A stretch of 64,000 bases of DNA from Conchocele bisecta (lineage: Eukaryota; Mollusca; Bivalvia; Lucinida; Thyasiridae). The stretch covers positions 83,570,447 to 83,634,446 of the forward strand of contig CM055265.1 of the NCBI GenBank assembly GCA_029237695.1. Direction: 5' to 3'. This document shows positions 168 through 60,081 of the stretch, piece after piece. The position numbers and the translations under genes are program-made. The notes beneath the pieces were generated by a model, which did no database searches, was not told where the DNA came from, and saw only the letters and a list, made by a program, of their open reading frames with translations. Every line of letters starts with the position of its first letter. Within the stretch, counting starts at the first letter, position 1.

Positions 168-3100
168 GTATGTGTATGTTATTGTTCACATATTGGATTT
201 TTAAGGAAATAAATGCGAGGGAGCGCCAGCTCCTGCAGCATTTAGTTCCTTAAAATTCCAATATGTGAACAATAACATATTTATAATTCAGCCAATTTTG
301 ACTATGTATCTCTCATCCTAGAATTGATTTTCCATTTACTGTTGAACAACTAATGATCTCTCATCCTAGAATTGATTTTCCATTTACAAGAATGACACTA
401 ATGATACTCTCATCCTAGAATTGATGTTCCATTTACTGTTGAACAACTAATGATCTCTCATCCTAGAATTGATGTTCCATTTACTGTTGAACAACTAATG
501 ATCTCTCATCCTAGAATTGATGTTCCATTTACTGTTGAACAACTAATGATCTCTCATCCTAGAATTGATGTTCCATTTACTGTTGAACAACTAATGATCT
601 CTCGTCCTAGAATTGATGTTCCATTTACTGTTGAACAACTAATGATCTCTCGTCCTAGAATTGATGTTCCATTTACTGTTGAACAACTAATGATCTCTCG
701 TCCTAGAATTGATGTTCCATTTACTGTTGAACAACTAATGATCTCTCGTCCTAGAATTGATGTTCCATTTACTGTTGAACTACTAATGATCTCTCGTCCT
801 AGAATTGATGTTCCATTTACTGTTGAACAACTAATGATCTCTCATCCTAGAATTGATGTTCCATTTACTGTTGAACAACTAATGATTAAATCTGGGGATA
901 TGTAACTTGTTGGGGTTAGATCTCGCAATATGTGAAATACGTGTAGCTCAATACTGGCCAGCGATTGGTTTAGAAAGTTGGGTGAACTATAAGCACGTTT
1001 GATGGTTACGCGGTTAAACATTTTTCCAGCATGCAATACTGTCAAAAGTATGACGAACCATTTTAAATAAAATATATTTCTGTTTCAGACTGAAATAATC
1101 ACTATTTGAATACAAATACACTAGCAGAGCTCCAGATAAACTGCGTATTTGCGTAAATACCAAATTAATATTGCCAAAAACCCAATTGAAATCAGAAGTA
1201 GCGAGTATCAAAAAGCAATAAGAAATTTATGGTACCTTTATCATGCTGCAGAAAACAATAAATAGTCCACAAATATAGCATATTTTTCTTATTTTCCATG
1301 AAAACACATCTTGGTAGTTCATTAGAATTGTATCCAAGGAGACAATTCTAATGAAATGCCAAGACATGTTCTCATTTCGAAGCAAACTATTCAATAATTG
1401 CTGTCTCTTGATGTGTTAACAGCAGTGTGATTTTATTTTACCCAATTAACATTTTGAAATACCCAATTGCTTCAGAAGTGACAATACTCAATTACTAATT
1501 CCTTATCTGGAGCCCTGCACTAGCATTTAACTTCACTGCCGAATCGTGTATTCACCCCTTTTCGGTGAGAGTTGAAACTGAGGTGCCATCTCTATAAGAC
1601 TAGTTGTTGCTTGGCTGTTCAGCCATTTCACTTTTCACACCTTGCCAACACCCATTCCAAAAAAGATATAGTCTGTGATTATAAAACGTTCACCAGTTCT
1701 CTGTAAATGACATTGAAAGTTGAAGAAATTCTTATAGCAAATGCGGAATTCTATTTTAAAATCATTTACAGCATATATCACAGTTTCTGTAAACATCTTT
1801 CATGAAAGACGCACATCTTTTTAGTTAAAAAAATTACATTGCTCATCTCACTTATCCCCTAACAGATGGCGACAACAAGAACGGCACGGGCAAAGTGACC
1901 GCCCAGAAGACGTTCTGGCGTGACCAGCAGAAGTTCTACTACCTGCCGGTGATCATGTCGGACATGCGGGGTCGCGATAGCCCCTACAGCATCACGGGCA
2001 CCAACACCCTCACCATCGAGATCGGGGACATCAACAACCAGCCACACAGTCCCGGACACCAGGACATCTTCGTCTACAAGTACAATTATGACGGTATGTC
2101 ATATTGCCATCTCTGTTAGAATATACAGATGTTGGATAGAAGTTGTTTCCCACTCATTGAAATCCCATAGACTTGCTTGTATTTGAAACTGTGCTTGTTA
2201 GCGTGTTTCTTCAAATATACTGTACAGATTTTAATGAAATAAAATGCATTGAGTAGCCAATAGATTTGCGCAGAATTTGTATGTGTATTCAATAATCAAA
2301 GTAGTTTACAAGATGCATGCAGCTAAACTTATGGACATTTTTTGGAAATGCTGTTCCCGTTGACGTCAATTGTGACGTCACTCGAAAAGTGACGTCAGAT
2401 AATTATGCCATATTTAAAAAGATGTATCTATCGAACTGCTTGTGATAATCAGTAACCAAAACATTCATATTTAATATGCATAAATCTATTTTCTTTCATT
2501 CAAACACTTTATATTTCATTCAAATTGGTAAAGTATATACCGAGCTACGTATTTGAGAGTAAAGATGGAAATACATGTAAATCTATGGGATTTTAACTTT
2601 CGGGAAGTTACTTCTGTCCACCGCACATGTATGTATACCTTTGACTTCAAGTACAAGTACGAAGGTACTTGTTAGTGCTGTCTCTGTTGGAATATATTAT
2701 TACCCAGCTCCCAAAATAAGTATATATTCCATAGTTTTGACTAATTCCCTGGGTATTGACGTGCCTGGGCAATAGTTCCGCGTGCCAGGTCAATAGTTCC
2801 GCGTGCCAGGTCAATAGTTCCGCGTGCCAGGTCAATAGTTGCGCGTGCCAGGTCAATAGTTCCGCGTGCCAGGTCAATAGTTCCGCGTGCCCGTGGAATA
2901 GTCAAAACTATTTTCACCCCAGAAACTCATGACATCATGTTTTTTGTCGAAGATTACGTTATAAAATTGAACGTAATTTAGATTGGTCTGTCGACGCGCC
3001 ACACGCCAAATTTACGTTCATTGTGTTGCATACTCTGTTACAGCTTGAGTAATAAAACAGTTATTTCATGGTAATTCGGGGAACAGTCAAAACATATTGC

Positions 3101-6100
3101 CCCTCGGTGCCGACAACACTTTAGGATCATTTCATATTCCCTCGGTGCTGTGGACGACCCGATGCCCTACACTGCAGCTCCATTATAACGCGGTCGCGTA
3201 TAGCGCGATCTCCATTATAACGCGGGTCTCTCGTGGATCCCAAAAAAATATTTAAAAAATCAAGAAAAAAAAAATAAAAAAATCGTCGGACGTACGACAG
3301 TCATCGTGTAATCAGTTGATTCGTGATTTCTGCAAGTTTATTCAAACAACGAAGTTCAAAGTCCACGAAATGATTATTATTAGTATGTTAGCAAATGTAA
3401 TACATGTACCTTTAATCAGGTAATCATGTTAATAGGCATATTTATTAATCAATTCAATTACACATAATTGTCGCTAATAAATGGTTGCGTGTTTTTCTTT
3501 ACTCCCAGCACAGGTGGAAGACTCGGACCTATGACACCAAAAAAATGCCTATTACAAAAATCCCATTACCCCACCCCACACTTGGTCTCGTACATTACCA
3601 TCTTCTCTTTATATAAGATGGTAATGTACGAGACCAAGTGGGTGGGGTAATGGGATTTTTTTTAATAGGCATTTTTTTGGTGTCATAGATCCGAGTCTTC
3701 CACCTGTGACTCCCAGGTGTAATATTTAGTGTTCTATAAATAGACTGGTGTTTCAGCATTATCTGGGTATGGGATGACAAGGTCTATTGTTTACACTGCA
3801 GCCCACGGCAATCTCGCTTAAATCGTAAATTTCATTCATCAATATGACTTGCAGCGTAAACAATAGATCACGTGACCCCACATCCTGAGATTATGCACGT
3901 ATCAACCGCATGAATAGGCAGGACACGTGACCATTGCCATTATTTATTATCAATTAATCCGTTTAAGCGTCTGTTGATCGCGAGTAGTATACATTGTAAT
4001 AAGCGTCTGTCTATCGCGAGCACTATACAACGTAATAAGCATGATTTTATAAATAACTCATATTTTTAATACATTAATACATACACGTTTGTATGTCATA
4101 GGCATTATTAATAATTACTTTAACTTTTGTTCAAATGACATGATTTTATATGGGTCCGTTGCTAATGAAATTCCCGCAATAGTTGGTAACCGAAATGCGA
4201 ATGATACCAGTAACCCGTGCAGTACCAGTACCCGTGCATGTCCCGAAATTTTATAACGCGGTCGGATTCGATCGCGGTTTGAAATCTTGGACCCCGACCA
4301 CCGCGTTATAATGGAGTTGCAGTGTATTGCTTTCAGCCTCAGTGCAATAGTGCCTCGGGTCGTCCACAGCACCGAGGGGCAATAGTTTTGACTGTTCCCC
4401 GAATTACCATGAAATAACTATGTATATTACGTAGAAGCACATGTATATCTTTGACTTCAAGCAGGGCTCCATATAAGGAATTAGTAATTGAGTATTTTCA
4501 CTCCATCATTTCTAAAGCCATTGGGTATTTCAAAATTGTAATTGGGTAAAATGAAATCGCACTACTGTTTACACATCAACAGACAGCAATTATTGAATAA
4601 TTTGCTTCGAAATGAAAACATGTCTTGGCATTTCATTAGAATTGTCTCCTTGGAGACAATTCTAATGAAATACCAAGATGTGTTTTCATGGAAAATAAGA
4701 AAAAATATGCTGTATTTGTGGTCTGTTTATTGTTTTATGCATCATGATAAAGGTACCACAAAATTGTTATTGCTTTTTGATACTCTCTACATCTGATTTC
4801 AATTGGGTTTTTGGCAATTTTAATTGGGTATTTACGCAAATACGCAGCTTATCTGGAGCACTGTTCAAGTGTTATTTACGAGCACCAACACCCTCACCAT
4901 CGAGATCGGAGACATCAACCACAAAAGCCCGAACACCAGCACATTTGTGTCTACAATGAAATTATTCTAAAGTGTTGTTGACCTATGTTTGTGATGAGAA
5001 AAAATGGAGAATAGAAACAAAAAAACAGCAGCTGACACAAAGTTTAATTCAGCAGTATATGGTTAACGGTTTGTCTTATTGACTGGAAATAGATGTTTGT
5101 ATATCAGACACGCCATGCGATTTTGTACCTTTGAACATTTGCGTAATTTCATTAAATACGTTTACAAAATTTACAATATTTTCCGTAAATGGTGTCAACA
5201 GTTGACAAAATTTTCAGAGTACATGCGGAATTATATTCCGCATGTACTCTGAAAATGTTGTCAACTTTTGACTTTATTTATGAAAACTATTGTAAATTTT
5301 GTTAACGTATTTATGCAGATGTCCAAAGGTAGAAAATCGCATGGCTTGTCTCCTATGTGATGTGTGTTGTGTTGTAGGTGTGGTGGACGACCTGGTGATC
5401 GGCACAGTGTATGCAGAGGATCTCGATGACTGGGACGTCACGGACAAACACTTCTACTTCCAGGGCCCGCCCGTCATGGCCAACTACTTCAGGTCAGTGT
5501 CACATATTCCGCTAGTCAACTGTTCCCTTGCTAGTCAGAAATCCCCCACCCCCCTGTATATACAGTCGAACCTGTGCTAAAGGCCATCTCTGAATAGCAA
5601 TTACCTGTCTTCAGCAAGCCACGCTTTTGTTTTCCCAGTTATTTAATTACTACATAAATGAACCTGTGAACAAAGACCACCTGAACAAAGGCCAGATTTG
5701 TCTCTTCCGATGGCTGACTTGAAAATTTCTCCCTCAAAGAGTACTTAGCAAGATAAGTATACTTTGCAATGTTGGTGAAATATGCTTCTGGTATTGCACC
5801 TGATAAACGTGATTTATTTCATAAAATGGACATTCACAATGTAGTAACATGGTGTACTTGTAGCAGTAGCCTGGTCTTCTATATCACCCGTGCCTCGTAT
5901 TCAGTGGGTGGCAGGTTGGAGCATGCGATGGGTAATTTAACGATTGATGTCCATCCTTACCGGAATCCCGACCGGAGACCTGGTTTGGCCCTCACATACG
6001 TCTTTGACATTTTTGTATGTGACGGTTGAATCTGGTTATACCTTATGTAAGTGTTACGATTATTCGGAATCCTATTACTTTTAGGGAAGGGGCCAAGTGA

Positions 6101-9100
6101 CTTTGGTGTGGTATGGACCTGGCACCAGGTCGGGTTGTTCTAATTTCAGGGCTGAATATATATTTTTATGCCCCACCACGATACTGGAGGGGGCATTTAG
6201 TGTTACCCTTGTCTGTCCGTCCGTCCGTCCGTCACGAAACTTTAAAGCTCGGGTAAATTTGGCCTCATTTATTATCAAAGCGATATGTGGGGCATCCGTG
6301 TTCTATGAACACATTTTCTAGTTTTAGATGTAAATATTCCGTTCTGGTTTTGGGATTTTCCCCACCCAATATAGCAAGTTACATACGGGATCGAACCCGT
6401 TGGCCCGACCTGAAAGTTGATAGGCCCTAGCTGTTGATAGGCCATTAAACACCAATAAATTGATCAATTGCAGTGTTGACTTCAACGACGGCAGCATATA
6501 CATGGACAGGAAGACTCCACCCGGGCGACACAGCTTCGTGGCCAAGGTGTGGGACTTTGTCGTGTTCACAAAAATCAACGCGACCTGCACCGTCACCGTC
6601 ACTGTCGAGGAGATTACCAAGGAGACTGTCTATCATTCTGGCTCACTGCGGCTGACAGGTAACATTGTCAATGATGGCATGGCATATTTATTATGGCAGG
6701 ATAAAGAACCCTGATTTTCAACATTTTCTGATGATATGCACGTGCGGATATAGTACATTAGTAAAACTTTTTATGCCCCCAGGAACGTAGAATTCAGACT
6801 GTCTAACTACATGTCCGCTATGTCCGAAAATCCAAGATCAAAGTTACAATTGTCATGTTCGCCTTGCATTTAGCAAAGAAGTTGTGTTTTTTTATTTTCG
6901 CAATAACATTTCAATCCTTTGACTGATTTTGATCGTATTTAGCAACACTATTCGATCACCACATTTACCAGGAACGGTAAATCACCTCATGAATAATTGA
7001 TACTCGCTTACCATGTGTCAATATCTCCACAGGAATCACGGCCGAGCAGTTTGTTGCGAACCGCCTAGACAAGCCGAACGTACTGAGCAAGTACTACCGC
7101 TTCCAGAAGCTGATGGCTGACAAGCTGAACGTGCCACACCAGAATGTGCAGATCTTCAGTGTGATGAACGGCGAGGACAACGCGTACACGGACATCCGCT
7201 ATTCCGTACACGGGTCGCCGTACTACCAGCCCTCGAAGCTCAACGGAATTGTCTCCCTTGATAAAAATGAGGTACCATAATAACGCTAAATATTTGGACA
7301 CATTTTGTTTTGGGAAACCCCTATAATAGGGGTTTCCCAAAACAAATTGTGTCCAAATACATTCTTATTGTGATATGATAGACAAGTACAACCATAAATA
7401 ACGGTAAATGTTTGGAGAAAGTATACATTAATGTGTGTGTCCTACAACACATTGTGTCCGAATATTTAGGGGTGTTACGGTAACTAGATTTATTATGCAA
7501 ATTGGGCTTTCACAGTGTATAAACATGGTTTATTAAACATCATAATGCACTACGGATAATAAACGCTTTATCTATTAGGCTACAGAATATTTGCTAGGAA
7601 ATCAATATAAATATAGCTTCAGTGTATGATTATGGGCTTATAAAATCTAATATTGGACAGTGTGTTTAGCAAGCGAATAGTATGAATCAAATCCACTAAA
7701 AAATAAATAGTTATCTTGTCACACTCCTTGTATTTAAAGTTTGAGTTGTTAGTGGGAATCACCATAGCGATCACCATTTGTATGTGGGAGATGTGTGAAG
7801 AATGACCCCTTGTTTGAGTCGTTAGTGGGAATCACCATAGCGATGATCAACATCAACATGTGTATGCGGGAGATAATGAATCTCTTGTATTTACAGTTTC
7901 AGTCGTTAGTGGGAATCACCATAGCGATGATCAACATCAACATGTGTATGCGGTAGATAACGAATCCTTTGTACTTACAGTTTCAAGCGTTAGTGGGTAT
8001 CACCATAGCGATGATCAACATCAACATGTGTATGCGGGAGATAATGAATCCTTGTATTTACAGTTTCAGTCATTAGTGGGCATCACCATAGCAATGATCA
8101 ACATCAACATGTGTATGCGGGAGATAATGTATTACAGTTTCAGTCGTTAGTGGGAATCACCATAGCGATGATCAACATCAACATGTGTATGCGGGAGATA
8201 ATGAATCCTTGTATTTACAGTTTTAGTTGTTAGTGGGAATCATCATAGCGATGATCAACATCAACATATGTATGCGGGAGATAATGAATCCCTTGTATTT
8301 ACAGTTTTAGTTGTTAGTGGGAATCATCATAGCAATGATCAACATCAACATGTGTATGCGGGAGATAATGAATCCCTTGTATTTACAGTTTCAATGTTAG
8401 TGGGAATCACCATAGCGATGATCAACATCAACATGTGTATGCGGGAGATAATGAATCCCTTGTATTTACAGTTTCAATCGTTAGTGGGAATCACCATAGC
8501 GATGATCAACATCAACATGTGTATGCGGGAGATAATGAATCCTTGTATTTACAGTTTTAGTTGTTAGTGGGAATCACCATAGCGATGATCAACATCAACA
8601 TGTGTATGCGGGAGATAATGAATCCCTTGTATTTACAGTTTCAATGTTAGTGGGAATCACCATAGCAATGATCAACATCAACATGTGTATGCGGAAGATA
8701 ATGAATCCCTTGTATTTACAGTTTCAATCGTTAGTGGGAATCACCATAGCGATGACCAACATCAACATGTGTATGCGGGAGATAATGAATCCTTGTATTT
8801 ACAGTTTTAGTTGTTAGTGGGAATCACCATAGCAATGATCAACATCAACATGTGTATGCGGGAGATAATGAATCCCTTGTATTTACAGTTTCAATCGTTA
8901 GTGGGAATCACCATAGCGATGATCAACATCAACATGTGTATGCGGGAGATAATGAATCCCTTGTATTTACAGTTTCAATCGTTAGTGGGAATCACCATAG
9001 CGATGATCAACATCAACATGTGTATGCGGGAGATAATGAATCCCTTGTATTTACAGTTTCAATCGTTAGTGGGAATCACCATAGCGAGGATCAACATCAC

Positions 9101-12100
9101 CATGTGTATGCGGGAGATAACGAATCCTTTGTACTTACAGTTTCAATCGTTAGTGGGCATCACCATAGCGATGATCAACATCAACATGTGTATGCGGGAG
9201 ATGTGCGAATCAGGCGGCTGTGCGAATATCCTCGTTATCGGCAAGGAGCCAAACTACGTGAATACCAACGGCTCCTCGTTTGTCGGCGTGACGACGAGCG
9301 TGCGAGCCGAGTGTCAGTGTCGCGCCCAGAACTTCTCAAACTTGGTGCATTGTACCCCGGACTACTGCTATAATGGCGGCCGATGTGTCCGTGATCAGTG
9401 GACAGATATCAAGTACGTGATTACGTGATGCTGTCCCATGTTACCACCAGCAGCAGGGAATACCAGGCTGGAGTCTGTTCATATCAAGTTTATTAGCCAT
9501 GGCTTGGAAGCGTGTATGAATTCCTCGGCGAGCCGAGGAATTCCTACACTCTTCCAAGCCATGCCTGTGAATGTTAATATCAAGTTTAGCAGACTCGGAT
9601 TGGAAAGGCGTATTAATTCCGAGATCTGCTGTCAAAAGAAGCTAGCCTGGTATTCTATTTATCCTGTAACTTTCTGCTACATAGTAATCTAATCTAATGT
9701 GGGTTTTGTCTGGGAAAAAAAACCCAGATTGTTTCATCATATCATTACAATTACGTCATTTGTAGCGTGCCTGTCAAAGGAAGGAGTGTTTTTGCTATAC
9801 CTAGAGTGGTGTCAGTATTTGTCCGTCTGTCCAACCGTCTTGAAATGTTAAGTTTTCATGTTTTGATCCGTTTCACCCTCTCTATCTGCCACACATTCTA
9901 TACCCACGCCATCATGAGCATGTCGTTGTCCTTTGACAACTCTTTTACATCACATGATGTCAATCGAGTGGAGAAATTAATACTTTCTTGTTACAAACCA
10001 TCTCATCTGGATCTACACTGTTTGCAAACATTGCTAGATACCATATTCAAGCAAATAGTAATGCAGAAAATAAGCTGATTGGACCTTTTTTTAGGTGACC
10101 ACTTGTCTTCAAAGATTACTATTCTGAGCTCCTGTGAGCGGTCTCTAAACACAGGTTACCTGTACTTACAGGTGCGTGGACTGTCCGGCGGGGTTTGACG
10201 GCCCGCGATGCCAGCAGACGCGACACAGCTTCAATGGCGGCTATGCCCTGTATGCAGCCTTTGACCAGTGTGAGGACAGCTCCACCAGCATTGAGATCCT
10301 CTCCTTGAAATCCAATGGCCTCATCTTCTACAACGGCCCCGTGGCTGAACTGACGCTCGACGAGCCGGCAGACTTTATTGCCCTGTGGCTGCAGGACGGC
10401 TACCCCGTGTTACAGATCGACCACGGCTCCGGCCCGCTCACCCTTAGTCTGGATGGCCGCGACACAAAGGGCAACCGGCCCCTGCAGAAACTTGACGACG
10501 GCAGGTGGCACCGTATTGACATCATACGCAAGGCCAAGGTACAGGCTAATTGGCCTTAAAGGCCCTCTATTTTTGGGAGATAACTGTGCCTTATATCAAT
10601 TTACTTCATCAATATATTTTAAATATAATTTTTTTTATGGCCCCACCTCTGTAGAGCCGAGGGCATAGTGTCTTTGCACTGTGTGTCCATCCAGTGCTCA
10701 CATTAAGATGTTTGTCAGTTTCTCCAATGTGCCACCTGGGCATTTGTGCCGACTGGCCACATTTTCTTGTTAAAATTGAAGATATTGTTTTTCGTATGTG
10801 ATGCGTGACGTAGATTCGTTAAAGTTTGTTTGACGTCATTAAAATACATGACGTTCATCGTCGTTGTCAATAACGTCACGCTATTGACCGGCAACTTTGC
10901 TGTTCCAGCAATTGCGACAAAATGACGTAAAACAAGATTATTCTTAATTTTAACGCCATATTTGCTTATTTTATTTTTATGTATATTTATTTTATATTTG
11001 AGCATCAACTAGCATAAAACATTACCTGATTAATAGAAATCCAGCCTAGTGCCTGTTGATATCCAATTTATCAGGCTCGGCCTGGAATTCCTACGCATTT
11101 CCTAGCCTATCCTGATAAACTTGATAGCAACAGACACTAACATGGTATTCTCTGTAGAAATTCCTCCTCGGAATTCCTACGCGTTTCCTAGCCGTGCCTA
11201 TTAAATAAACTTAACCCTTAGACCGCTACTCATAACAATTGTCGTCTGCTGTTGCTTTTATATCTTGCTTTATTTCTCAATAAAAACATGGTTTGACAGC
11301 ACTTCAGAATCATTTCCAATGAAAATGATTCTGAAGTGCTGTCAAAACATGTTGTAAATTATTCTAAAGTGCTGTCAAATCATGTTTTTGATGATAAAAA
11401 TGGAAAATAGAAAATAAACAGCAGACGACAAAAATATGGGTTCATATCAACAAACACGAGCCTGGTATTCTCCATATTCGCGATATCTCGTGCCAGGTTG
11501 TGACGATGGTGGTGGACCACTGCGACATGATCATCGGGGAAGGCAACGGCGACTCGGACACGGATCGGAGCCCATGCGAGGTCAGCGGCGAAACGCCGGG
11601 GGAAAACCTCTTCCTGAATGTGAACACGTTGCTACAACTCGGTGGTCGCTACGTGGAGCCGGCACGCCCGGATACCGTCACCTCGAACCGCTACCAGGGC
11701 TGTGTCCGGAACCTCATACACAATGGACAGGTAGGCGGCGATGGACTGACAAAGATAACGCTTGCAGGGCTGTACAAATTGATTTTTTAGGCACTTGTCC
11801 TGGACAAGTGACTTGAAAAAAGTGACTTGCCCTGACTTGTCCTGGAAAATATAATTTTCAGGGCAAGTAATTTTGAAAAAGTGCCTTGTCCTCGTAAGAT
11901 TTCTTATACGAAACTGTCCCAAAACAAAAACTATTATCATAGTTGTTAAATATAATACAATTGAGCACTTGGCACATATACATATTATATTAAATATCTA
12001 TAATAATAAATATTGTATAGTACATATTTATTTTTGTGGTTTTTTTGTCACTGTGCCACCGCGGACATAACGTTGCGACGAGTGCATACTCAAAACACAT

Positions 12101-21100: not shown

Positions 21101-24100
21101 GTAAATTATTGTAAAGTGCTGTCAAAGCATGTTTTTGATGATAAAAATGGAAAAAGATGGCGGTCTCAGGGTTAATACATCCCCTTTGTAGAGACGACAG
21201 TTCGTGACATGAAGGAGAGCAGTTTCCTCAGCTGGTCTCTGCGCTATCAGTTCCTCAACACGGAGGTGAGCTCGGGCACAACTCAGGTTCAGCTGAACTT
21301 CCGGACCCGTGATCCCGACGGTATCCTGCTCCACCTGCCCTCAAACAATGACGAGTTTATCACACTCGAGGTGAGTGATGTTATATGATTTTATTACAAT
21401 CTCTGTGTATGTATTATATTACCCTTTAGATTTTATCAATTTTCCCTTGTGACTTGGGATTTTTTGTATGTCCAGCCATGGGTACACATTTGCCGTGGCA
21501 CTCGGGAACTGTTTGAACCCGCGTCATGGTCAAACGTTATTGTTACATTTCCGTTGGAAATATTGTGTAATTTGAGCATATATGCAGTACTTTTGGTACT
21601 TTAATAACCTCTTCCATTCAAACAGCTGATTTACACATACATATTCCGGGGCCGCAGTACATGTCGCGTGATGCAGTTAAATATTCCCCATCCTCTGCCC
21701 CGGAATGAGCATTGTCGACAGCCATGGTCAAACAGCATGTGCTGTACGTTTCAGTAACGGCAGTCAAGTAACAATTGCAGATTAATGTAATATCAAACAA
21801 CACTAGCCTCATATTCTTTATGTTACAGCTGGTAGGTGACCACATACATGTGCTAGCTCGGAAACTGGAAATTCCTCGCCGAGCCTCGGAATTCCTGCGC
21901 ATTTCCTAGTCTTACCTACTATTCTGTATGTTACAGTTGGTGGGTGGCCGGGTACAGGTCCTGTACAACCTGGGTGATCAGCTGGCCAAGGGGGATGGTG
22001 ACTCAGTCCTCGCACTGACCCACGCTCTGGCCAGTAACGGCCAGTGGCACACAGTGTACCTGCGCCGCATTGGTCGGTGGTTCCAGCTCCGGATGGATGG
22101 CAGCGAGGGCCGTTACAACAACGAAACGTGGGGACCCAACAACGGGCATCAGCTCATCACCCTCCGCATGAACCAGATAGTCGCTGGCGCTCATGTTGTG
22201 TTCAGTAAAAACCCCATTGCTGCCGGGCAGGATTTGAATAGCAGTAAGTATATAGGTCATTATCAGGGCAGAAATTGAATAGCTGTGAGTGAAAAGGTCA
22301 TTATAAGGGCAGGATTTGAATAGCGGTGAGTAAATAGGTCATTCATTATATGGGCAGGATTTGAATAGCAGTGAGTAAATAGGTCATAATGTGGGAAGGA
22401 ATTGAATAGCAGTGAGTAAATGAGTCATGATGTGAGCAGAAATTGAATAGCAGTGAGTAAATAGGTCATTATATGGGCAGGATTTGAATAGCAGTGAGTA
22501 AATAGGTCATAATGTGGGAAGGAATTGAATAGCAGTGAGTAAATAGGTCGACGTGTGGGCAGGAATGGAATAGCAATGAGTAAATGGGTCATGATGTGGG
22601 CAGGAATTGAATAGCAGTGAGTAAATAGGTCAACATGTGGGCAAGAATGGAATAGCAATGAGTAAATGGGTCATGATGTGGGCAGGAATTGAATAGCAGT
22701 GAGTAATACGGTCTTAATGTGGGCAGGAATTGAACAGCAGTGAGTAAATATGTCAAAATGTGAGCAGGAATTGAATTGCAGTGAGTAAATAGGTCAAAAT
22801 GTGGGCAGGAATTGAACAGCAGTGAGTAAATAGGTTAAAATGAGGGCAGGAATTGAACAGCAGTGAGTAAATAGGGTAATATGTGGGCAGGAATTGAACA
22901 GCAGTGAGTAAATAGGTCATAATGTGGGAAGGAATTGAATAGCAGTGAGTAAATAAGTCATAATGTGGGAAGGAATTGAATAGCAGTGAGTAAATAGGTC
23001 ATACTGTGGGAAGGAATTGAATAGCAGTGAGTAAATAGGTCATGCTGTGAACATGATTTGAATAGGAGTGAGTAAATATGCCAAAATGTGGGCAGGATTT
23101 GAATAGCAGTGAGTAGATAGGTCAAAATATGGGCAGGAATTGAACAGCAGTGAGTAGATAGGTCAAAATGTGGGCAGGAATTGAACAGCAGTGAGTACAG
23201 AGGTCAAAATGTGGACAGGAATTGAACAGCAGTGAGTAAATAGGTCAAAATGTTGGAAGGAATTGAACAGCAGTGAGTAAATAGGTCATGATGTGGAAGG
23301 ATTTGAATAGCAGTGAGTAAATAAGCCATTATCAGGGCAAGATGTATAGCAGTGAGTAAATACACAACAATCTCTTCAGGAATTGAACAGAACTACCGTA
23401 TTCATACCCGTGGGAAGAAGTGCAGTTTAACAAGGTAAGAATATTACCACACTGCAAATATTGATTACTGGTAAGTTGTATGTGACAAGGTGGCCCGATT
23501 CGCATTTTGCATCGCTCCCCGGCACGTATATATTAGGATCAATACGGTAAGTAAATAAACAATCTGGGCAGAATCAGTCCATCAATCAATAAAACACCCT
23601 TCTTCTGTCACGTTCCAGCGTGTATAAACGACGTGCGGCTCAACAACGAGTGGTTCCCTATGCAGAACTCGGAGAACGAGCAGAGCTACGCGGCCATGCT
23701 GGAGTACGAACGCAATGTCGTCATGGACTGTACACGCGACGACTGTCTGAACGTGATCTGCCCCGCCGGCGTCCCCTATTCCATGGTCTGTCAACCACTA
23801 TGGGATGCTTACAAATGCAGGTAATGACGGCATAGAGAATCTTACATGACTGACAAATGTCTGTGATCATTATTAACCCTTAGACCACGCTACACACAAC
23901 AATTGTAATTGTCGTCTGCTGTTCCTTTTATATCTTGCCTTATTTCTCAATAAAAACATGGTTTGACAGCACTTCAGAATCATTTCCAACAATGGAAATG
24001 ATTCTGAAGTGCTGTCAAAGCATGTTGTAAATTTTTCTAAAGTGCTGTCAAAGCATGTTTTTGATGATAAAAATAGAAAATAAACAGCAGACGACAAAAA

Positions 24101-27100: not shown

Positions 27101-27932
27101 ACTGAATTTATTAAATTATCACAGCCAAAATGGCTGTGATCATGTAATAAATTCAGTATTTTGGCTGTGATAATGTAATAAATTCAGTATAATAAAAATT
27201 AATAAATTTATCCTTAAATTGAAAATTTCTCCCTCAAAGAGTACTTAACAAGATAAGTACACTTCTGGGTCTGCACTGTTCGCAATTAGTGAAACACCAG
27301 TGCAGCAAACGCTGTCATCGTCAGCACAAAACGTCTGCTAGCATAGCAGATCAGGACAGGAGCTAGACTGGCGACAGATGCAAGAATCCCCATTTAACTT
27401 TTATCATTAGACATATTCACATTTAGCAGGCTTGGGTCAATTATATGTGGCTGTAACTGGATAAATGGGGCTTATGGATTTTGCGACCAGCGTAGATCCA
27501 GATCAGCCTGTGCATCCGCCATGCTTCCAACAAGCAAGACAATCATTATCAGACTACAGGTCTGTGCAATTTGATCATGCACTACACTGGTCACAAATGC
27601 TATAAGCCCTATTTCCCCAGTCGCAGCCACATAATTATTAAATAGCCTAACTCACTACATTGCTCTCCCCAGGGACTCCAACCGGCGAGCGACCAGACGT
27701 GGCGACGTTTATAGACAACCGTCTGAATGACGCAAACTTTGACCCGAATGCCCCACCGCACGACAGCGTGCGCGAATTTGTGTACGAGGGTGGTGGCAGT
27801 GACGCGGGTTCGTTAAGCTCGTTGCAGACGTCATCGAGCCAGGACGCACAGGATTACGATTACCTAAACGACTGGGGGCCCAAGTTCTCTAAGCTTGCAA
27901 CTATGTATGGTGGGGACGAGGACGAAGATTGA
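1..27932 (+). CDS. CadN: CadN / DN-cadherin-like type III classical cadherin, 3' part of gene (15 exons)
   Basis: The coding exons are 1-167, 1866-2093, 5378-5492, 6474-6658, 7033-7271, 9141-9412, 10172-10538, 11497-11730, 20312-20528, 21192-21370, 21937-22243, 23619-23820, 25089-25333, 25910-26149 and 27673-27932. All internal borders are GT-AG and every phase matches, giving 1151 residues plus a stop from the codon at 2. Order of parts: cadherin repeat with DRDTP (residues 1-120), divergent cadherin-like region (120-310), cysteine-containing region and EGF (330-415), laminin G (420-600), EGF (620-672), laminin G (682-850), two EGF-like modules (865-960), membrane span (about 968-995), cytoplasmic tail (996-1151). 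The tail ends with the [12 protein letters not shown] and [18 protein letters not shown] blocks that bind beta-catenin in this family. It should be a plasma-membrane calcium-dependent adhesion receptor linked to actin through catenins. This layout is that of arthropod and mollusc N-cadherins. The N-terminal cadherin repeats and promoter lie before the window. Confidence 0.93.
175..280. repeat. Short foldback directly after the exon 1 donor
   Basis: Arms at 175-196 and 259-280 are perfect reverse complements over 22 bases (starting TATGTTATTG). An inner pair TTAAGGAA/TTCCTTAA extends the stem. The foldback begins 8 bases inside the intron, so the pre-mRNA could form a hairpin next to the 5' splice site. 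Confidence 0.8.
306..890. repeat. 48-bp minisatellite (about 12 copies)
   Basis: Tandem 48-base units with the core ATCTCTCATCCTAGAATTGA. The first three copies are variant or interrupted and the last nine are nearly identical. The unit is a multiple of three and lacks stops in one frame, which produces an accidental open frame of repeated MIS(H/R)[12 protein letters not shown]. It lies inside intron 1 and has no exon similarity, so I do not call it a gene. Confidence 0.93.
1125..1517. mobile_element. Family A non-autonomous DNA transposon, copy 1
   Basis: 393-bp element with imperfect terminal repeats (CAGAGCTCCAGATAA at the left, TTATCTGGAGCCCTG at the right). It is flanked by the 6-bp duplication CACTAG (1119-1124 and 1518-1523). 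The centre is a hairpin around TTAGAATTGTNTCC. There is no transposase. Termini resemble hAT elements, but the duplication is 6 rather than the usual 8 bases, so the superfamily is left open. Other copies are at 4462, 50635 and 63361. Confidence 0.88.
1866..2093 (+). CDS. CadN: CadN exon 2
   Basis: Encodes the second half of the last canonical cadherin repeat, including the [13 protein letters not shown] strand typical of a cadherin repeat end, then [12 protein letters not shown], which is strongly conserved in N-cadherins. Acceptor AACAG at 1861-1865; donor GTATGT at 2094. One base is carried over to exon 3, completing Gly. Confidence 0.93.
2768..2894. repeat. 21-bp minisatellite (about 6 copies)
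   Basis: Tandem repeats of GTGCCAGGTCAATAGTTCCGC with few differences. The array lies inside intron 2, shortly before the inverted-repeat block. Confidence 0.92.
3051..4425. mobile_element. Long inverted-repeat (foldback) element with nested foldback
   Basis: The left arm from about 3058 (TTATTTCATGGTAATTCGGG) is answered by the right arm ending about 4420 (CCGAATTACCATGAAATAA). Further in, AGCTCCATTATAACGCG at the left pairs with CGCGTTATAATGGAGTT at the right, so the arms are about 150 bases each. No coding sequence is seen. A related motif (CACATGTAT..CTTTGACTTCAAG) lies on both outer sides near 2625 and 4438, so the true element may be larger. Confidence 0.7.
3509..3709. repeat. Near-perfect 200-bp palindrome
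   Basis: Arms of about 93 bases (3509-3602 and 3617-3709) are almost exact reverse complements around a roughly 14-base spacer. Examples are AGGTGGAAGACTCGG/CCGAGTCTTCCACCT and GGTCTCGTACATTACCATCT/AGATGGTAATGTACGAGACC. It is nested inside the 3051-4425 element. Confidence 0.92.
4462..4863. mobile_element. Family A non-autonomous DNA transposon, copy 2
   Basis: 402-bp copy in the opposite orientation to copy 1, starting CAGGGCTCCATATAAGG and ending CTTATCTGGAGCACTG. A 6-bp target duplication TTCAAG lies at 4456-4461 and 4864-4869. A central palindrome surrounds GTCTCCTTGGAGAC. It sits directly before the exon 2 relic. Confidence 0.9.
4873..4957 (+). pseudogene. Broken duplicate of part of CadN exon 2
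   Basis: The stretch ACCAACACCCTCACCATCGA and what follows matches exon 2 bases near 2000-2085 and reads [12 protein letters not shown] in the matching frame. After this a one-base deletion shifts the frame, and the AGCCCGAACACCAGCAC segment corresponds to AGTCCCGGACACCAGGAC of exon 2. No intact donor follows. It is a decayed exon copy rather than a usable alternative exon. Confidence 0.82.
5107..5345. mobile_element. Family B foldback element beside exon 3
   Basis: Long palindrome: CATGCGATTTTGTACCTTTG near 5114 pairs with AAAGGTAGAAAATCGCATGG near 5325, and the centre reads TCCGCATGTACTCTGAAAAT against its complement. The right end lies about 32 bases before the exon 3 acceptor. Related foldbacks lie near 25437, 28926 and 35728. 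Confidence 0.85.
5378..5492 (+). CDS. CadN: CadN exon 3
   Basis: Encodes [20 protein letters not shown] and following residues, the conserved start of the membrane-proximal cadherin-like region (residues 131-169). Acceptor TTGTAG; donor GTCAGT at 5493. Two bases are carried over to exon 4, completing Ser. Confidence 0.92.
5716..5790. repeat. Family H fragment
   Basis: Matches one end of the 300-bp family H foldbacks at 26963, 29450 and 42170 (GAAAATTTCTCCCTCAAAGA, then AAGATAAGTATACTTTGCAA). The other arm is absent. Confidence 0.75.
5893..6461. mobile_element. Family C SINE-like repeat, interrupted
   Basis: Starts near GTGGCAGGTTGGAGCATGC. It continues through the CTGGTTTGGCCCTCACATAC block and ends with CGGGATCGAACCCGTTGGCC and GTTGATAGGCCATTAAACAC. 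The CGGGATCGAACCCG motif resembles a B-box read on the opposite strand. Parts of the same consensus recur near 24820 (reverse), 42575, 43862, 47240, 47800 (reverse) and 48470. Confidence 0.7.
6167..6325. mobile_element. TATGCCCC-type repeat (family M), copy 1
   Basis: Begins TTTTATGCCCCACCACGATA, followed by GGGGGCATTTAGTGTTACCC and a (GTCC)n run. It is inserted in the family C repeat. Related copies are at 10637 (fragment), 20650 and 26158. Confidence 0.65.
6474..6658 (+). CDS. CadN: CadN exon 4
   Basis: Encodes the rest of the divergent cadherin-like domain ([20 protein letters not shown] through [13 protein letters not shown]), residues 170-231. Acceptor ATTGCAG; donor GTAACA at 6659. One base carries into exon 5. 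Confidence 0.92.
6659..7032 (+). other. Intron 4 of CadN
   Basis: 374-bp GT-AG intron. I see no recognisable repeat apart from a short TTTATGCCCCCAGGAACG fragment near 6770. Confidence 0.85.
7033..7271 (+). CDS. CadN: CadN exon 5
   Basis: Encodes [20 protein letters not shown] and on to [10 protein letters not shown] (residues 232-311), the linker from the cadherin-like region to the EGF/LamG section. It ends in phase 0 at GAG before a weak donor, GTACCA. The next exon in phase 0 continues family-typical sequence. Confidence 0.9.
7287..7361. repeat. 75-bp palindrome just after the exon 5 donor
   Basis: Arms of about 36 bases: ATTTGGACACATTTTGTTTT with GGGAAACCCCTAT pairs with ATAGGGGTTTCCC and AAACAAATTGTGTCCAAAT. 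There is almost no spacer. The stem starts about 16 bases after the 5' splice site. Confidence 0.92.
7741..9140 (+). repeat. Minisatellite made from the exon 6 acceptor and exon start (about 17 extra copies)
   Basis: Units of 82-84 bases (a few diverged) each hold TTGTATTTACAG followed by the first 54-60 bases of exon 6 (TCGTTAGTGGGAATCACCAT, then ATGTGTATGCGGGAGAT). The exon itself is the last unit. The first unit keeps a little more of the exon (GGGAGATGTGTGAAG). The three copies nearest the exon begin at 8889, 8973 and 9057, exactly 84 bases apart and without stops, so each acceptor would be frame-compatible. Copies further upstream include 83-base units or a TAG (8808-8810). Confidence 0.95.
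9141..9412 (+). CDS. CadN: CadN exon 6
   Basis: Starts [20 protein letters not shown] and continues through CESGGC to the EGF start [17 protein letters not shown] (residues 312-401). The start is the last TTACAG before unique sequence and keeps phase 0 with exon 5. Donor GTACGT at 9413; two bases carry into exon 7. Upstream in-frame copies of the acceptor mean a longer version cannot be excluded. Confidence 0.88.
9413..10171 (+). other. Intron 6 of CadN
   Basis: 9455-9655 is a family J foldback. 9690-10150 is unassigned repeat-like DNA (a GTCCGTCTGTCC motif and TTAAGTTTTCATGTTTTGAT, seen in other repeats of the window), with no gene. Confidence 0.8.
9455..9655. repeat. Family J foldback, copy 1
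   Basis: Partial palindrome: ATGGCTTGGAAGCGTGTATG and GAATTCCTCGGC pair with GCCGAGGAATTC and CACTCTTCCAAGCCAT. ATATCAAGTTTAGCAGACTC extends the family consensus. Related sequence lies at 11040, 11440, 21800 and 42020. Confidence 0.7.
10172..10538 (+). CDS. CadN: CadN exon 7
   Basis: Completes the first EGF module ([15 protein letters not shown]) and opens laminin G 1 ([56 protein letters not shown]), residues 402-524. Acceptor TTACAG; donor GTACAG at 10539 in phase 0. Confidence 0.94.
11040..11165. repeat. Family J foldback, copy 2
   Basis: TTGATATCCAATTTATCAGG pairs imperfectly with CCTGATAAACTTGATAGCAA. It ends with the family tail CAGACACTAACATGGTATTC. Confidence 0.65.
11211..11437. mobile_element. 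Family E MITE (TTAACCCTTA type), copy 1
   Basis: Starts TTAACCCTTAGACCGCTACT, with TTGTCGTCTGCTGTT inside the left end and AACAGCAGACGACAA at the right. The centre is a palindrome of GACAGCACTTCAGAATCATT. The family is flanked by TTAA and ends CCCTTA...TAAGGG in better copies, which fits a piggyBac-like MITE. The right terminus of this copy is lost. Confidence 0.75.
11497..11730 (+). CDS. CadN: CadN exon 8
   Basis: Encodes [18 protein letters not shown] to [13 protein letters not shown] (residues 525-602), the second half of laminin G 1 with its closing GCVRNL cysteine strand. Both borders are phase 0; acceptor GTGCCAG, donor GTAGGC. Confidence 0.93.
12560..12829. repeat. Family I repeat, left piece
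   Basis: Holds TCTCGCGTTTTCACGATCTC and GCCTTCCGCTTTTG, which recur near 15580-15620 and as a complement near 15800. It appears to be one repeat split by the family F insertion at 12830. A TACCGTTTTTTAAAAACGGT hairpin lies near 12550. Confidence 0.6.
12878..12938 (+). repeat. G-rich GGGCGGGCGGGT tandem run
   Basis: Repeated GGGCGGGCGGGTGGGCGGC blocks give many closely spaced G-triplets on the + strand, a classical potential G-quadruplex. It belongs to the 5' part of family F; a shorter run is at 32144-32162. Confidence 0.9.
13557..14215. repeat. 145-bp tandem array inside family F
   Basis: Five units, each with TATATCTCTGCAACTGCTTC, CTTCACATGGGTGTTTATCA and CAATGTCAAGGTCAAATTAC. Parts of the same unit recur at 14800-15000 and 32580-32800. 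Confidence 0.9.
15279..16331. mobile_element. Family I repeat, right piece with foldback
   Basis: Begins AAGAAATAGAACAAATGTGG and ends TTGTCACATTTGTTTGATTT, forming inverted ends. A foldback pairs 15600-15660 (GCCTTCCGCTTTTGGAAATA) with 15795-15825 (TATTTCCAAAAGCGGAAGGC). Tandem GACGATTCTCA hairpins occur near 16130-16280. No gene is seen. Confidence 0.6.
16562..16660 (+). mobile_element. tRNA-derived SINE head, copy 1
   Basis: ATGGCCTAGGGCTTAGAACA resembles a tRNA A-box region. GGTTGTGGAACCGTTCAAAC is a decayed B-box. The following CATACCTTCATAGTATGTCC matches the copy at 27995 (ACATTCATAGTATTTCC). The Pol III promoter looks degraded. Confidence 0.6.
16661..19600. other. Unassigned interior of the 8-kb element
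   Basis: No protein-coding gene is recognisable. Short CACACCTGTGGTTT repeats occur at 17158-17220. GGAACTTTACATCCGGTCTA-type repeats occur three or four times at 18590-18785. Open frames of up to 146 codons here arise from those repeats and resemble no known family. Confidence 0.6.
20033..20237. mobile_element. Family D foldback, copy 1 (decayed)
   Basis: TACGACTAAAATGTTTGTAA at the left and TTACAAACATTTT at the right, with the family core GGAAATTTCAATTGATGGAT. Ends AGTCAAACGGCCCCC. The central palindrome is partly lost. Confidence 0.78.
20312..20528 (+). CDS. CadN: CadN exon 9
   Basis: Encodes [15 protein letters not shown], then an EGF-like module [20 protein letters not shown] and [11 protein letters not shown] (residues 603-674). 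Acceptor TTTCAG; donor GTGAGT at 20529; one base carries over. Confidence 0.92.
20650..20822. mobile_element. Family M (TATGCCCC...GGGGCATAT) repeat, copy 3
   Basis: Starts TTTATGCCCCATATTCGATA and ends near CATGGGGCATATCCATGTTT. It has an internal TACGTCCGTCC run. It matches the copy at 26158-26312 almost throughout. Confidence 0.78.
20951..21177. mobile_element. Family E MITE, copy 2
   Basis: TTAACCCGTAGACCGCTACA at the left, CTCAGGGTTAA at the right. The central palindrome surrounds TTTCCAATGGAAA with CAGCACTTCAGAATCA arms. Confidence 0.88.
21192..21370 (+). CDS. CadN: CadN exon 10
   Basis: Encodes the start of laminin G 2: [42 protein letters not shown] (residues 675-734). The acceptor GTAG at 21188-21191 is chosen because using the next AG (21193) shifts into a stop. 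Donor GTGAGT, phase 0. Confidence 0.92.
21371..21936 (+). other. Intron 10 of CadN
   Basis: 566-bp intron. 21371-21790 shows nothing recognisable. 21816-21860 is a decayed copy of the exon 11 acceptor and exon start. 21860-21920 holds family J sequence. Confidence 0.85.
21816..21860 (+). repeat. Decayed duplicate of the exon 11 3' splice site and exon start
   Basis: TATTCTTTATGTTACAG followed by CTGGTAGGTGACCAC matches TATTCTGTATGTTACAG and TTGGTGGGTGGCCGG at 21922-21951, then diverges. The translated start LVGDHIHVL parallels LVGGRVQVL of exon 11. Family J sequence fills the roughly 60 bases between the copies. Confidence 0.8.
21937..22243 (+). CDS. CadN: CadN exon 11
   Basis: Encodes the body of laminin G 2: [60 protein letters not shown] (residues 735-836). 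Ends in phase 1 before GTAAGT. Reading on past this donor meets a TGA at 22276-22278. Confidence 0.93.
22244..23618 (+). other. Intron 11 of CadN
   Basis: Joining 22243 directly to 23619 restores the frame and the family-typical [11 protein letters not shown] strand. The intron is the donor-derived array plus about 250 bases without recognisable features (23366-23618). Confidence 0.88.
22250..23365 (+). repeat. Minisatellite made from the exon 11 end and donor (about 27 copies)
   Basis: Units of about 41 bases with GGCAGGAATTGAATAGCA then GTGAGTAAATAGGTCA copy the last 19 bases of exon 11 (GGGCAGGATTTGAATAGCA) plus its 5' splice site and first intron bases. The genuine junction carries GTAAGT, while most copies carry GTGAGT or ATGAGT. 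The array fills intron 11 almost completely. Variants within the unit (GGAAGG for GGCAGG, CAACATG for CATAATG) mark higher-order blocks. Confidence 0.95.
23619..23820 (+). CDS. CadN: CadN exon 12
   Basis: Encodes the end of laminin G 2 ([15 protein letters not shown]) and the start of the next EGF-like module ([26 protein letters not shown]), residues 837-903. Acceptor TTCCAG; donor GTAATG; two bases carry over. Confidence 0.93.
23874..24122. mobile_element. Family E MITE, copy 3
   Basis: TTAACCCTTAGACCACGCTA to GCGGTGTAAGGGTTCA. Central palindrome of GACAGCACTTCAGAATCATT arms, with a second GTGCTGTCAAAGCATG repeat on the right side. Confidence 0.9.
24234..24468. mobile_element. Family D foldback, copy 2
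   Basis: GGGGGCCGTTTCACTAAACT at the left, AGTTTAGTGAAACAGCCCC at the right. Centre TTGAGCATAGGCTGCCTATG...CTCAA is a near-perfect hairpin. Confidence 0.92.
24571..24690. repeat. Family G fragment
   Basis: Right half of the family G element: GCGAACAGTGCAGATCCTGA, then CAAAACCCATAAGCCCCATT and CTCCAGTCACAGCCACATA. Confidence 0.8.
24820..25010. repeat. Family C repeat piece, reverse orientation
   Basis: CTCCCTAAAAGTAATACGAT, then GTATAACCGGATTCAACTCT and GAGGGCCAAAGCAGG are complements of the family C body seen at 5940-6110. The copy is old and diverged. Confidence 0.7.
25089..25333 (+). CDS. CadN: CadN exon 13
   Basis: Completes the EGF-like module begun in exon 12 ([12 protein letters not shown]), encodes a full EGF ([28 protein letters not shown]), then a Thr-rich stalk and the first half of the membrane span ([15 protein letters not shown]), residues 904-985. 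Donor GTAAGT in phase 1. Confidence 0.94.
25334..25909 (+). other. Intron 13 of CadN
   Basis: 576-bp GT-AG intron. 25437-25580 is a decayed family B foldback (ATCTTTTCATGAAAGATATT near 25453). 25584-25758 is a CAGGG-ended element. The remainder shows nothing notable. Confidence 0.85.
25584..25758. mobile_element. 175-bp CAGGGATTCC foldback with 6-bp duplication
   Basis: CAGGGATTCCGCTGG at the left and CCAGCGGAATCCCTG at the right are exact complements; inside, ATCGCCACTT pairs with AAGTGGCGAT. The target duplication CTTGTC lies at 25578-25583 and 25759-25764. Termini and duplication length resemble family A. Confidence 0.9.
25910..26149 (+). CDS. CadN: CadN exon 14
   Basis: Second half of the membrane span ([14 protein letters not shown]) and the juxtamembrane tail: acidic [20 protein letters not shown], then [18 protein letters not shown] (residues 985-1065). 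The DDIREN(V/I)I.YDEEG.GEED.D.YD block is the conserved cadherin juxtamembrane region. Acceptor CTGCAG; donor GTAAGT. Confidence 0.94.
26158..26312. mobile_element. Family M repeat, copy 4
   Basis: TATTACGGCATATTGTATTG to GCGGGGGCATATCTATG, with the shared AGAGTTTCTCCAGTTAGAGT block. It starts 9 bases after the exon 14 donor. Confidence 0.75.
26332..26517. mobile_element. Family E MITE, copy 4 (short variant)
   Basis: TTAACCCTCATTGCACAGTA to GCGTAGTAAGGGTTAA with TTGTCTGCTGTT/AACAG-type inner ends (GCAGCAGACGACAA). The usual central palindrome is deleted. Confidence 0.82.
26963..27270. mobile_element. Family H foldback, copy 1
   Basis: Ends AGCATACTTATCTAGCC and GATAAGTACACTT. The centre TACTGAATTTATTAAATTATC / GATAATGTAATAAATTCAGT forms a hairpin with a CAGCCAAAATGGCTG core, here with a repeated core block. 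Confidence 0.82.
27449..27635. mobile_element. Family G MITE, copy 2
   Basis: TGGCTGTAACTGGATAAATG at the left and CCAGTCGCAGCCACATAAT at the right are inverted. The interior has GATCCAGATCAGCCTG. The element resembles other copies near 29328, 40709 and 45448. Confidence 0.85.
27673..27932 (+). CDS. CadN: CadN last coding exon 15
   Basis: Encodes [45 protein letters not shown] and the final [20 protein letters not shown] block before an acidic end and TGA at 27930. This C-terminal segment is the beta-catenin-binding region of classical cadherins. Acceptor CCCCAG. No polyadenylation signal stands out just downstream. Confidence 0.95.
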
Positions 27933-49492: not shown

Positions 49493-50401
49493 TCAATTCA
49501 GTCGTATTTCATTCTTTTTTTCAGCAGGTTTCTCTAATTTCTCGTTGTCTGTGGTCATGTGACTGCCGTCATCACATTTTTGTGCTGCCTGTGCTTTAAG
49601 GTTAATCTCATCTTTGAATTCATCCAACTCATCCAGCTCAAGTGACTCAAAGTAGCCAACCATGTTTGTATAGACCTTTTTATCAAGGAACTGCTGTTTC
49701 ACAATCAGCACAGGTTTACCCTTCACCTTTATCGAAGTGAATGGTCCAGTGATAGGAGGCACTTCAACATCATCCGGCTTAAACGCCATCTCTTTCCGCC
49801 GCAGGAAAATACTATACGTGGATAACGTATACACGTTGGTTTTATCGTCAAAGTAAATGTCCATCACATATTTCCTTGACACCGAGTGAATTAGCAGCGG
49901 CGTGCACAAACCAAAAAATCCCACCGCTACCAGCCCGACACTTGCCTTAACAAGGCTGGATACATGTGGATCCAACATCAGGAACGGCTGCAGTACGAGC
50001 ACATTTGCACTGGTAAACAAAGTGAACATCTTAATGTTTCTCACAAACTTCCTGAGTTCACCAGCATACACCAGCCTGCCTTTATCAGGGTGAACATACG
50101 GTTGGTTAGATACAGGTTCTATTTCGCCATTATTGCTCGCTTTCGACCAGAGGGCTCGACTTGAGACGACCAAGTTCCAACTAGCATGTTGAGCCGTTAG
50201 TAATCCCTGGCAGTGTGCATGACCATTATAGTACTGATGTATACTTCTAGGAATTGGCATTGCCGAGAAGCTGCGTTGTGATGCACTGCAGCTGGCATCC
50301 CATTGGAGAGAGAAGCCACCACCCAACGTTGCCACAACGGGATAATGTGAGTGTAGATGGCGTATGTGCCGTATATTCCGTGTCAGTGACATCGTGCACA
50401 T
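49493..50401 (-). CDS. TMEM70: TMEM70-like mitochondrial complex-assembly protein
   Basis: 302 residues, uninterrupted. TMEM70 is an inner-membrane protein that helps assemble ATP synthase and complex I. The N-terminus is basic and lacks acidic residues (RNIRHIRHLHSHY), fitting a mitochondrial targeting sequence. A conserved GRLVYAGEL at 108-116 leads into two membrane spans (about 126-143 and 151-174) separated by a short LDPHVSS loop. Then come YVMDIYFDDKTNVYTLSTYS and a matrix-side domain ending MVGYFES. A second Met at residue 4 could be the start. Upstream on the coding strand CTATTTCAG precedes the start by about 7 bases, so a 5' UTR exon is possible. The C-terminal tail is charged and Lys/Glu-rich. 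The coding part is unbroken by introns, unlike the human gene. Confidence 0.88.
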   Translation of the reverse strand: MCTMSLTRNIRHIRHLHSHYPVVATLGGGFSLQWDASCSASQRSFSAMPIPRSIHQYYNGHAHCQGLLTAQHASWNLVVSSRALWSKASNNGEIEPVSNQPYVHPDKGRLVYAGELRKFVRNIKMFTLFTSANVLVLQPFLMLDPHVSSLVKASVGLVAVGFFGLCTPLLIHSVSRKYVMDIYFDDKTNVYTLSTYSIFLRRKEMAFKPDDVEVPPITGPFTSIKVKGKPVLIVKQQFLDKKVYTNMVGYFESLELDELDEFKDEINLKAQAAQKCDDGSHMTTDNEKLEKPAEKKNEIRLN

Positions 50402-54163: not shown

Positions 54164-54488
54164 ATGGCTGAAATGTCTACTCCCATCTCCAAAAGCACAA
54201 GAAAACGCGCAGGGAAGACAACTCGACATTGTCACCTGATAGCAAATCACCCGAAGCTAAATTAGCCAACAACAGACGAGCACATAATTCACCCAAACCA
54301 CCACCCCGGCAGACACAGCAATTTAATACATACAGAGCAGACAGGCAAACCAATCAGGAACCTGGACGGACACTCTACATTTCAAAATAGAGGGCCCCAG
54401 GCGTAGGTCAGTAACTATTCCACAATTTGTTCTGTCTTTCCTGTCCTATGTAGGAGGCAATATAAGTCAAGCCGAAATCAGCTGTGGC

Positions 54489-55355
54489 ATGGATGCACCA
54501 GACATCTTCAAAATTAAACTACCGAATCGCTACACTAACAAAGGAAAAAGCTTCACAACCCCAGTTGGCATGACTGGAGTTGAGTTCAGACACTTGTCGC
54601 ACCAAAACACAAACAGACAACACCCATCCACTAAACAACAACCAAACCAAACAGTCACTCTGGGGATTGCAGATCATCCAGACTTCACACGACTTAACAA
54701 AGAAGAACTAATGACAGCACTAGACGCTGGAAAAAACAAAATAACTGAAGCACATCACATAGGCAAAAACAAATCAACACTTCTAATTAAATTTAACTCA
54801 CCCACTCTACCATTCACCATAACACCTGCTAGCTACATCAATTGCGGAAATGACATCAACATAGGCATCACGATATCACGTCCCATTAGATGTAACAAAT
54901 ACCAACAATTCGGTCATAAGCAAAACAATTGCAAAAACAATAAAACAGTATGTCCCATCTGTGGCTACTCACACACTTACACGGCGTGCACATACAAAAA
55001 TACACGAGCTCAAGATGTTTGCAACAACTGCTACGTAGCTCAACAACATGAATGTGGACATAGGGCTAGTGATCCGTACTGTCCTATGTTTCTCAGATAC
55101 AAAGAACAACTCGCCCAAAAAAACAACACTAGACAGCTCACTAGAAACGCACTAAAAGAACAACTTCAAATCCCAAATATTAACGTGAATCAGGAACAAA
55201 TTAAGAATAAGTTTCCGCAAACAGACTATAACAAGCGAACGCCAGAGAAAACTCATATACAGGCTACACCTAAAACTAATAAACGAAAGAGAGCATATGA
55301 AACATCTTACAAAGATTACCAAACTCCCAATAAAACATTAACAAACAATCAATGA
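54489..55355 (+). CDS. Non-LTR ORF1 (gag-like nucleic-acid-binding protein), partial
   Basis: 288 codons, with three Cys/His groups: CNKYQQFGHKQNNC (CCHC knuckle), CPICGYSHTYTAC and CNNCYVAQQHEC. These bind element RNA in the I/Jockey groups. A likely original start lies upstream at ATG 54164, separated by frameshifts and a TAG near 54387, so the N-terminus is lost. The basic C-terminal end stops at TGA 55353, which overlaps the next ATG. Confidence 0.82.
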   Translation: MDAPDIFKIKLPNRYTNKGKSFTTPVGMTGVEFRHLSHQNTNRQHPSTKQQPNQTVTLGIADHPDFTRLNKEELMTALDAGKNKITEAHHIGKNKSTLLIKFNSPTLPFTITPASYINCGNDINIGITISRPIRCNKYQQFGHKQNNCKNNKTVCPICGYSHTYTACTYKNTRAQDVCNNCYVAQQHECGHRASDPYCPMFLRYKEQLAQKNNTRQLTRNALKEQLQIPNINVNQEQIKNKFPQTDYNKRTPEKTHIQATPKTNKRKRAYETSYKDYQTPNKTLTNNQ

Positions 55356-56258: not shown

Positions 56259-56398
56259 GAGACCAGTGCAACTAAATGAGCCAGAAATGGAATCAAATAT
56301 GACACCGCTAAGTGAAATAATAGCGACTAAGCGTCACGGACTAAGACTTCCTGATATACAATAAAACATAAACATATTTAATAAAAAAAAAGAATAGT

Positions 56399-60061: not shown

Positions 60062-60081
60062 GCAAAAATGGTGGACATATT

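Follow-up and report, generated by a model that had tools for sequence, protein, structure and literature searches.

Intron 5 of a neural-cadherin-type gene in the bivalve Conchocele bisecta ends in a long series of near-copies of the splice acceptor and start of the exon that follows it. How did such a series arise, which of its many acceptors is the real one, and do the other copies have a function? The window, which is the whole 64,000-nucleotide stretch of contig CM055265.1 that was analyzed, holds the 3' part of this gene, 15 exons (2-167 to 27673-27932; exon numbers here count from the start of the window) whose joined translation is 1151 residues long. Profile search of the exon translations finds an Ig_Shg domain, laminin G domains, EGF modules and, last, the cadherin tail (PF01049, E 1.7e-27). 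The top protein matches are molluscan (Bulinus, 43% identity over 99% of the query; Pinctada, 48% over 64% of the query, with a second entry at 51% over 35%), and the third-ranked match is a spider neural-cadherin. Just two solved structures were found to resemble the Ig_Shg domain, both antibody chains (E 0.55 and 0.62). Elsewhere in the window there are a TMEM70/TMEM186/TMEM223 family gene on the minus strand at 49493-50401 (PF06979, E 1.8e-25), for whose protein no relatives were found at E 1e-3 among the 999 candidates of a protein search, and a probable non-LTR retrotransposon on the plus strand at 54327-60456 with an RNase H domain in one open frame (PF00075, E 2.6e-14). The features around the series of copies, here called array 1, are as follows (window numbering):

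7033 to 7271, plus strand: exon 5 of the gene model, which encodes the first part of Ig_Shg (PF24811 profile positions 30-100) and ends in phase 0
7740 to 9140, plus strand: array 1, the upstream copies of the intron 5/exon 6 boundary, 17 units, 15 with TTACAG (Tandem Repeats Finder, anchor spacing and unit alignment)
8889 to 9140, plus strand: the three exon-proximal units of array 1, with acceptors at 8889, 8973 and 9057, from which an uninterrupted in-frame reading leads into exon 6
9141 to 9412, plus strand: exon 6 with its conserved acceptor at 9141, which encodes the remainder of Ig_Shg (PF24811 profile positions 102-151)
10172 to 10538, plus strand: exon 7 of the gene model, where the first laminin G domain (PF02210) starts

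A sequence-only reading had proposed that this is a minisatellite grown from the exon 6 acceptor, with about 17 extra copies of the boundary, and both parts of that proposal are well supported. The anchor TTAGTGGG occurs 18 times from 7749 to 9150, that is, in 17 upstream units and in the exon itself, and Tandem Repeats Finder reports an array at 7812-9202 (period 84, 16.8 copies, 93% matches, score 2383) that far exceeds chance. All nine matches from a search of the assembly (1.89 Gb, 1196 contigs) with 252 bases of array 1 lie at a single place, the match count being a lower bound. Unit length had been given as 82-84 bases; the 17 anchor spacings are 84 (nine), 83 (six), 74 (one) and 73 (one), so that 15 agree with the two upper values and none is 82. 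Unit alignment shows that a complete unit consists of 22 intron bases and 62 exon 6 bases, somewhat more of the exon than the 54-60 coding bases first estimated. Nor does every unit carry an acceptor, as had been thought: TTACAG is kept by units u3-u17, u1 reads AAAG and u2 has lost the site.

The units differ from one another in an orderly way. The far (5') end of the array is worn and the end near the exon is homogenized; u1 and u2 are divergent, and u5 and u6 carry deletions. In the identity matrix units 12-14 repeat units 9-11 (98-99% identity), and the unit at 8889 matches that at 8973 base for base. This recurrence of a three-unit block, together with the worn end, is what tandem-array turnover ordinarily leaves behind, and such a pattern counts against a simple assembly error. 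To call the units "perfect copies", as the sequence-only reading did, is slightly too strong: the nearest unit aligns to exon 6 with differences at three exon positions, two of which alter the amino acid, and 3 of the 22 intron positions set the most frequent decoy acceptor apart from the real one.

Which acceptor, then, is real? Homology places the junction at 9141. Exon 5 plus exon 6 read from 9141 is colinear with all 16 of the homologues in the junction alignment (16 of the 26 proteins found, none from this species), and not one of them has an insert at the junction. P0013 has extra divergent residues about 20 positions past the junction, and the match of P0022 ends there. The earlier claims about reading frame hold as well: the acceptors at 8889, 8973 and 9057 are spaced by 84 bases and would add 84, 56 and 28 residues, respectively, with no stop before the end of exon 6, and the other 13 of the 16 candidate acceptors upstream of 9141 all run into a stop. 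Four units begin TTTTAG, which includes an in-frame stop, one has an in-frame TAG farther on, and two have a one-base deletion. Is the copied part of the exon nevertheless kept as coding sequence? No sign of constraint was found in the exon-derived part of u2-u18, where the types of variant number 5, 5 and 6 at codon positions 1, 2 and 3; there is no third-position bias, and so nothing marks the copies as coding. The three open units are one recently amplified type.

The real acceptor does not stand out by its strength. Scored with a matrix for which 30 other acceptors of this cadherin gene were used, a small set in which the upstream exon edges were guessed from alignments, 9141 receives 6.4 (median of the training acceptors, 9.4), and 13 of the 16 decoys outscore it (eight at 8.7, one at 8.8 and four at 7.2), with one equal and two lower. 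The decoys are not weaker than 9141, so local sequence does not explain why they would be neglected. Position may account for it, since exon 6 lies between introns of 1869 bases (intron 5, 7272-9140) and 759 bases, and in long-intron settings the sites closest across the exon are favored, according to the part of PMC9225289 used here. On 3' splice sites that paper is more cautious, reporting for the long-intron class a significant reduction, and no reversal, of the upstream-site preference; neglect of the upstream copies is therefore not a given. Arrays of this sort have a precedent in amphioxus. Minisatellites that span an intron-exon boundary, termed mirages, are described there in Adh3 and in the globin genes BflGb6 and BflGb9 (PMC3087553) and in troponin C, with similar imperfect repeats in PGBD5 (PMC3902484), and the portions of these two reports that we consulted describe no apparent interference with splicing.

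The reading that best fits these observations is that array 1 is probably a by-product of intense tandem duplication in the introns that has been tolerated, and that it most likely has no positive function. A segment across the intron 5/exon 6 boundary would have undergone tandem duplication, after which slippage or unequal exchange would have multiplied it, a mutational process suggested by the anatomy of the array; all of the copies lie on the intron side. The decoys would be tolerated because they lie outward of the exon. The array would persist because exon 6 remains intact together with its own acceptor at 9141, and because the spliceosome presumably takes mostly the site nearest the exon body; recognition across exon 6 is plausible given the lengths of its flanking introns.

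Might the array instead be a device for varying the length of the protein, with 9057, 8973 and 8889 used in some tissues or individuals to put 28, 56 or 84 more residues inside Ig_Shg? The three nearest units preserve the frame and contain no stop, their acceptors each score 8.7 against 6.4 for 9141, and the nearest copy of a second acceptor array in this gene (array 3, below) is likewise in frame. If used, these copies would escape nonsense-mediated decay, and the other 13 would lead to premature stops. Such use is nonetheless unlikely, as the aligned homologues all lack an insert, coding constraint is not seen in the copies, an amino acid is altered by two of the three differences between the nearest unit and the exon, and most of the candidate acceptors lead to stops. 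We consider it decidedly unlikely that splice-boundary minisatellites are widespread in this genome and, in addition, that their in-frame copies are used here, giving +28, +56 and +84 isoforms that vary with array length between individuals.

Further boundary copies were found in the same gene, beginning with those of exon 11 (array 3 lies just upstream of the window):

21937 to 22243, plus strand: exon 11 of the gene model, second laminin G domain, with the real donor ATAGCA/GTAAGT
22225 to 23362, plus strand: array 2, a 41-base unit in 27.7 copies that repeats the end of exon 11 and its donor (Tandem Repeats Finder and motif count)
L009, 6153 to 6634: array 3, an acceptor array of 27-28-base units, TTCTGTTTCAG/GCGATTGACTACGA, before the exon at L009:6620
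21812 to 21854, plus strand: a degenerate single copy of the exon 11 acceptor boundary (score 41, 43 bases ungapped)
2639 to 2696, plus strand: a degenerate single copy of the exon 2 donor boundary (score 46, 58 bases ungapped)

GTRAGT occurs 26 times in the array 2 region, once as the real donor GTAAGT and 25 times as a GTGAGT decoy, and the reading extended to each of the 25 decoys meets a stop. The real donor scores 7.7 and 22 of the decoys score 5.4; the other three score 1.7 (the nearest), 7.3 and 1.9. The nearest copy in array 3 is 27 bases upstream of the exon and in frame, and would add nine residues; the distal units mostly have TTTTGG or something similar in place of TTTCAG, and having lost their AG the acceptors there are dead. 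Several other repeats were noted in the gene. Intron 2 has, at 4878-4965, a fragmentary copy of the exon 2 end, its frame broken; this is a second exon 2 relic in addition to that at 2639-2696. Intron 1 has a 48-base minisatellite at 308-886 (12 copies, 96% match) whose unit matched no exon. Farther upstream in the gene body, an intronic array of several dozen 79-base copies occupies approximately L010:75-4280 (85071-89280 in the joined gene body); it begins about 190 bases past an exon, and its unit has no match to that exon. The 15 near-identical acceptors of array 1 and the 25 near-identical donors of array 2, each set beside a conserved exon, amount to a natural experiment on spliceosomal choice among equal sites.

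Could one of these units be in the course of recruitment as a new small exon? A beginning of intron or exon gain of this kind has been proposed for the amphioxus globins in the part of PMC3087553 consulted, and, in what we used of PMC2812944, boundary repeats are held capable of creating introns in human paralogues. The consensus unit of array 1, inspected by eye, has no GTRAGT donor, and across array 2 the reading frame passes from exon 11 straight into exon 12 with no new exon, which makes this reading very improbable here. One candidate exon, at 23380-23434, which resembles an exon start built from the array 2 unit, was rejected on the same ground, as exon 12 (23619) continues the frame of exon 11 without it. 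These arrays do offer a test bed for the idea that boundary arrays feed intron and exon evolution. That array 1 is an artificial expansion of a short repeat in the assembly is exceedingly improbable: two adjacent units are identical and the copy number of such arrays is hard to assemble, but differences between units run through the whole array, which also has a pattern spanning several units and a worn end, and exon edges elsewhere have independent arrays with different periods.

Are exon edges hotspots for such duplication? We joined ten upstream pieces to the first 28 kb of the window, giving a gene body of 128 kb in which 70 exon edges could be placed, and counted positions straddled by a local copy (score at least 36, within 1.5 kb). 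Such copies straddle 6 of the 70 edges; of 1500 random intron positions they straddle 499, and of 400 exon-interior positions none. The introns are full of tandem duplications, exon interiors are without them and the edges tolerate some; per position, edges have fewer straddling copies than introns, and a hotspot at the edges was rejected. A scan of the window by itself agrees with this, as 6 of 28 boundaries score at least 28, which is also the 75th percentile of 300 random positions. Array counts give a different impression, as, of the eight arrays in the mapped gene body with five or more copies, three straddle an exon edge, and the chance that at least two of the seven arrays other than array 1 would do so is P 0.031-0.046 under a rough model that assumes 70-72 edges and a 50-60-base footprint. 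Because the two measures disagree, we claim no hotspot.

Copies at exon edges also occur in other genes, in 4 of 43 loci cut from the genome:

L051, 2648 to 3080: laminin G gene (C4), exon end TACTCTATATAG/GTGAGT, with 10 GTGAGT including the real one
L047, 489 to 658: laminin G gene (C15), two extra acceptor copies next to a 34-base minisatellite
L059, 872 to 1083: kinesin gene, two extra full acceptor copies and a further partial copy
L062, 805 to 1319: kinesin gene, two extra full acceptor copies

The laminin G and Ig_Shg survey comprised 37 loci (30 of the 48 laminin G matches were cut out), three of which (L019, L024 and L054) belong to the present gene, and the kinesin survey comprised nine loci holding 14 of 124 matches. 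The resulting 43 loci are a small, non-random set and are not all independent, since L034 and L035 overlap and L020, L022 and L023 seem to be paralogues. The exon-copy screen, run once on the plus strand and once on both strands, found L047, L059 and L062; L051 came from the repeat scan only. Matches in L058, L061 and L064 (31, 51 and 17 bases), which are inverted and touch intron flank only, were left uncounted. The plus-strand screen found no edge copies at the five Ig_Shg matches outside this gene (four C13, one C10). Arrays 2 and 3 and the copies in other genes are the same process at work elsewhere in the genome.

How do these arrays compare with known systems? The model of Rogers for intron gain by tandem genomic duplication (PMC4974935) likewise involves tandem duplication that includes splice signals. 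In that model, as far as the part consulted goes, the duplicated segment supplies both ends of the new intron; the unit here gives only a 3' site (array 1) or only a 5' site (array 2), and no new intron was seen. The boundary repeats of human paralogues (PMC2812944) are also minisatellites at exon edges able to alter gene structure, and from the portion of that paper used they differ in having units that average 30 bases in four copies, in lying in segmental duplications and in that half of the variable repeats are coding.

The closest likeness is to the mirages of amphioxus, and array 1 appears to be a minisatellite of this known type, an assignment that rests on the sequence of one assembly. 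Our search of the open-licence literature found no report of such arrays from a mollusc. In the sections consulted of the amphioxus work, mirages have boundary-spanning units, many of which carry splice signals, at both 5' and 3' boundaries, and the same is seen here in array 1 (22 intron plus 62 exon bases, TTACAG in 15 of 17 units) and in array 2 (the exon 11 donor, 25 decoy GTGAGT). The central units of those mirages are homogenized and their edges less so; here too, the identity matrix shows a homogenized array with its edge units set apart. The copies number 17 and about 27 here, versus 6 and 3 in two amphioxus BflGb6 haplotypes, and the present case differs, from what is given in those sections, in its host and in having three arrays in one gene. 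The mirage would thereby be extended from cephalochordates to a mollusc, with more copies and with its repetition within a single gene.
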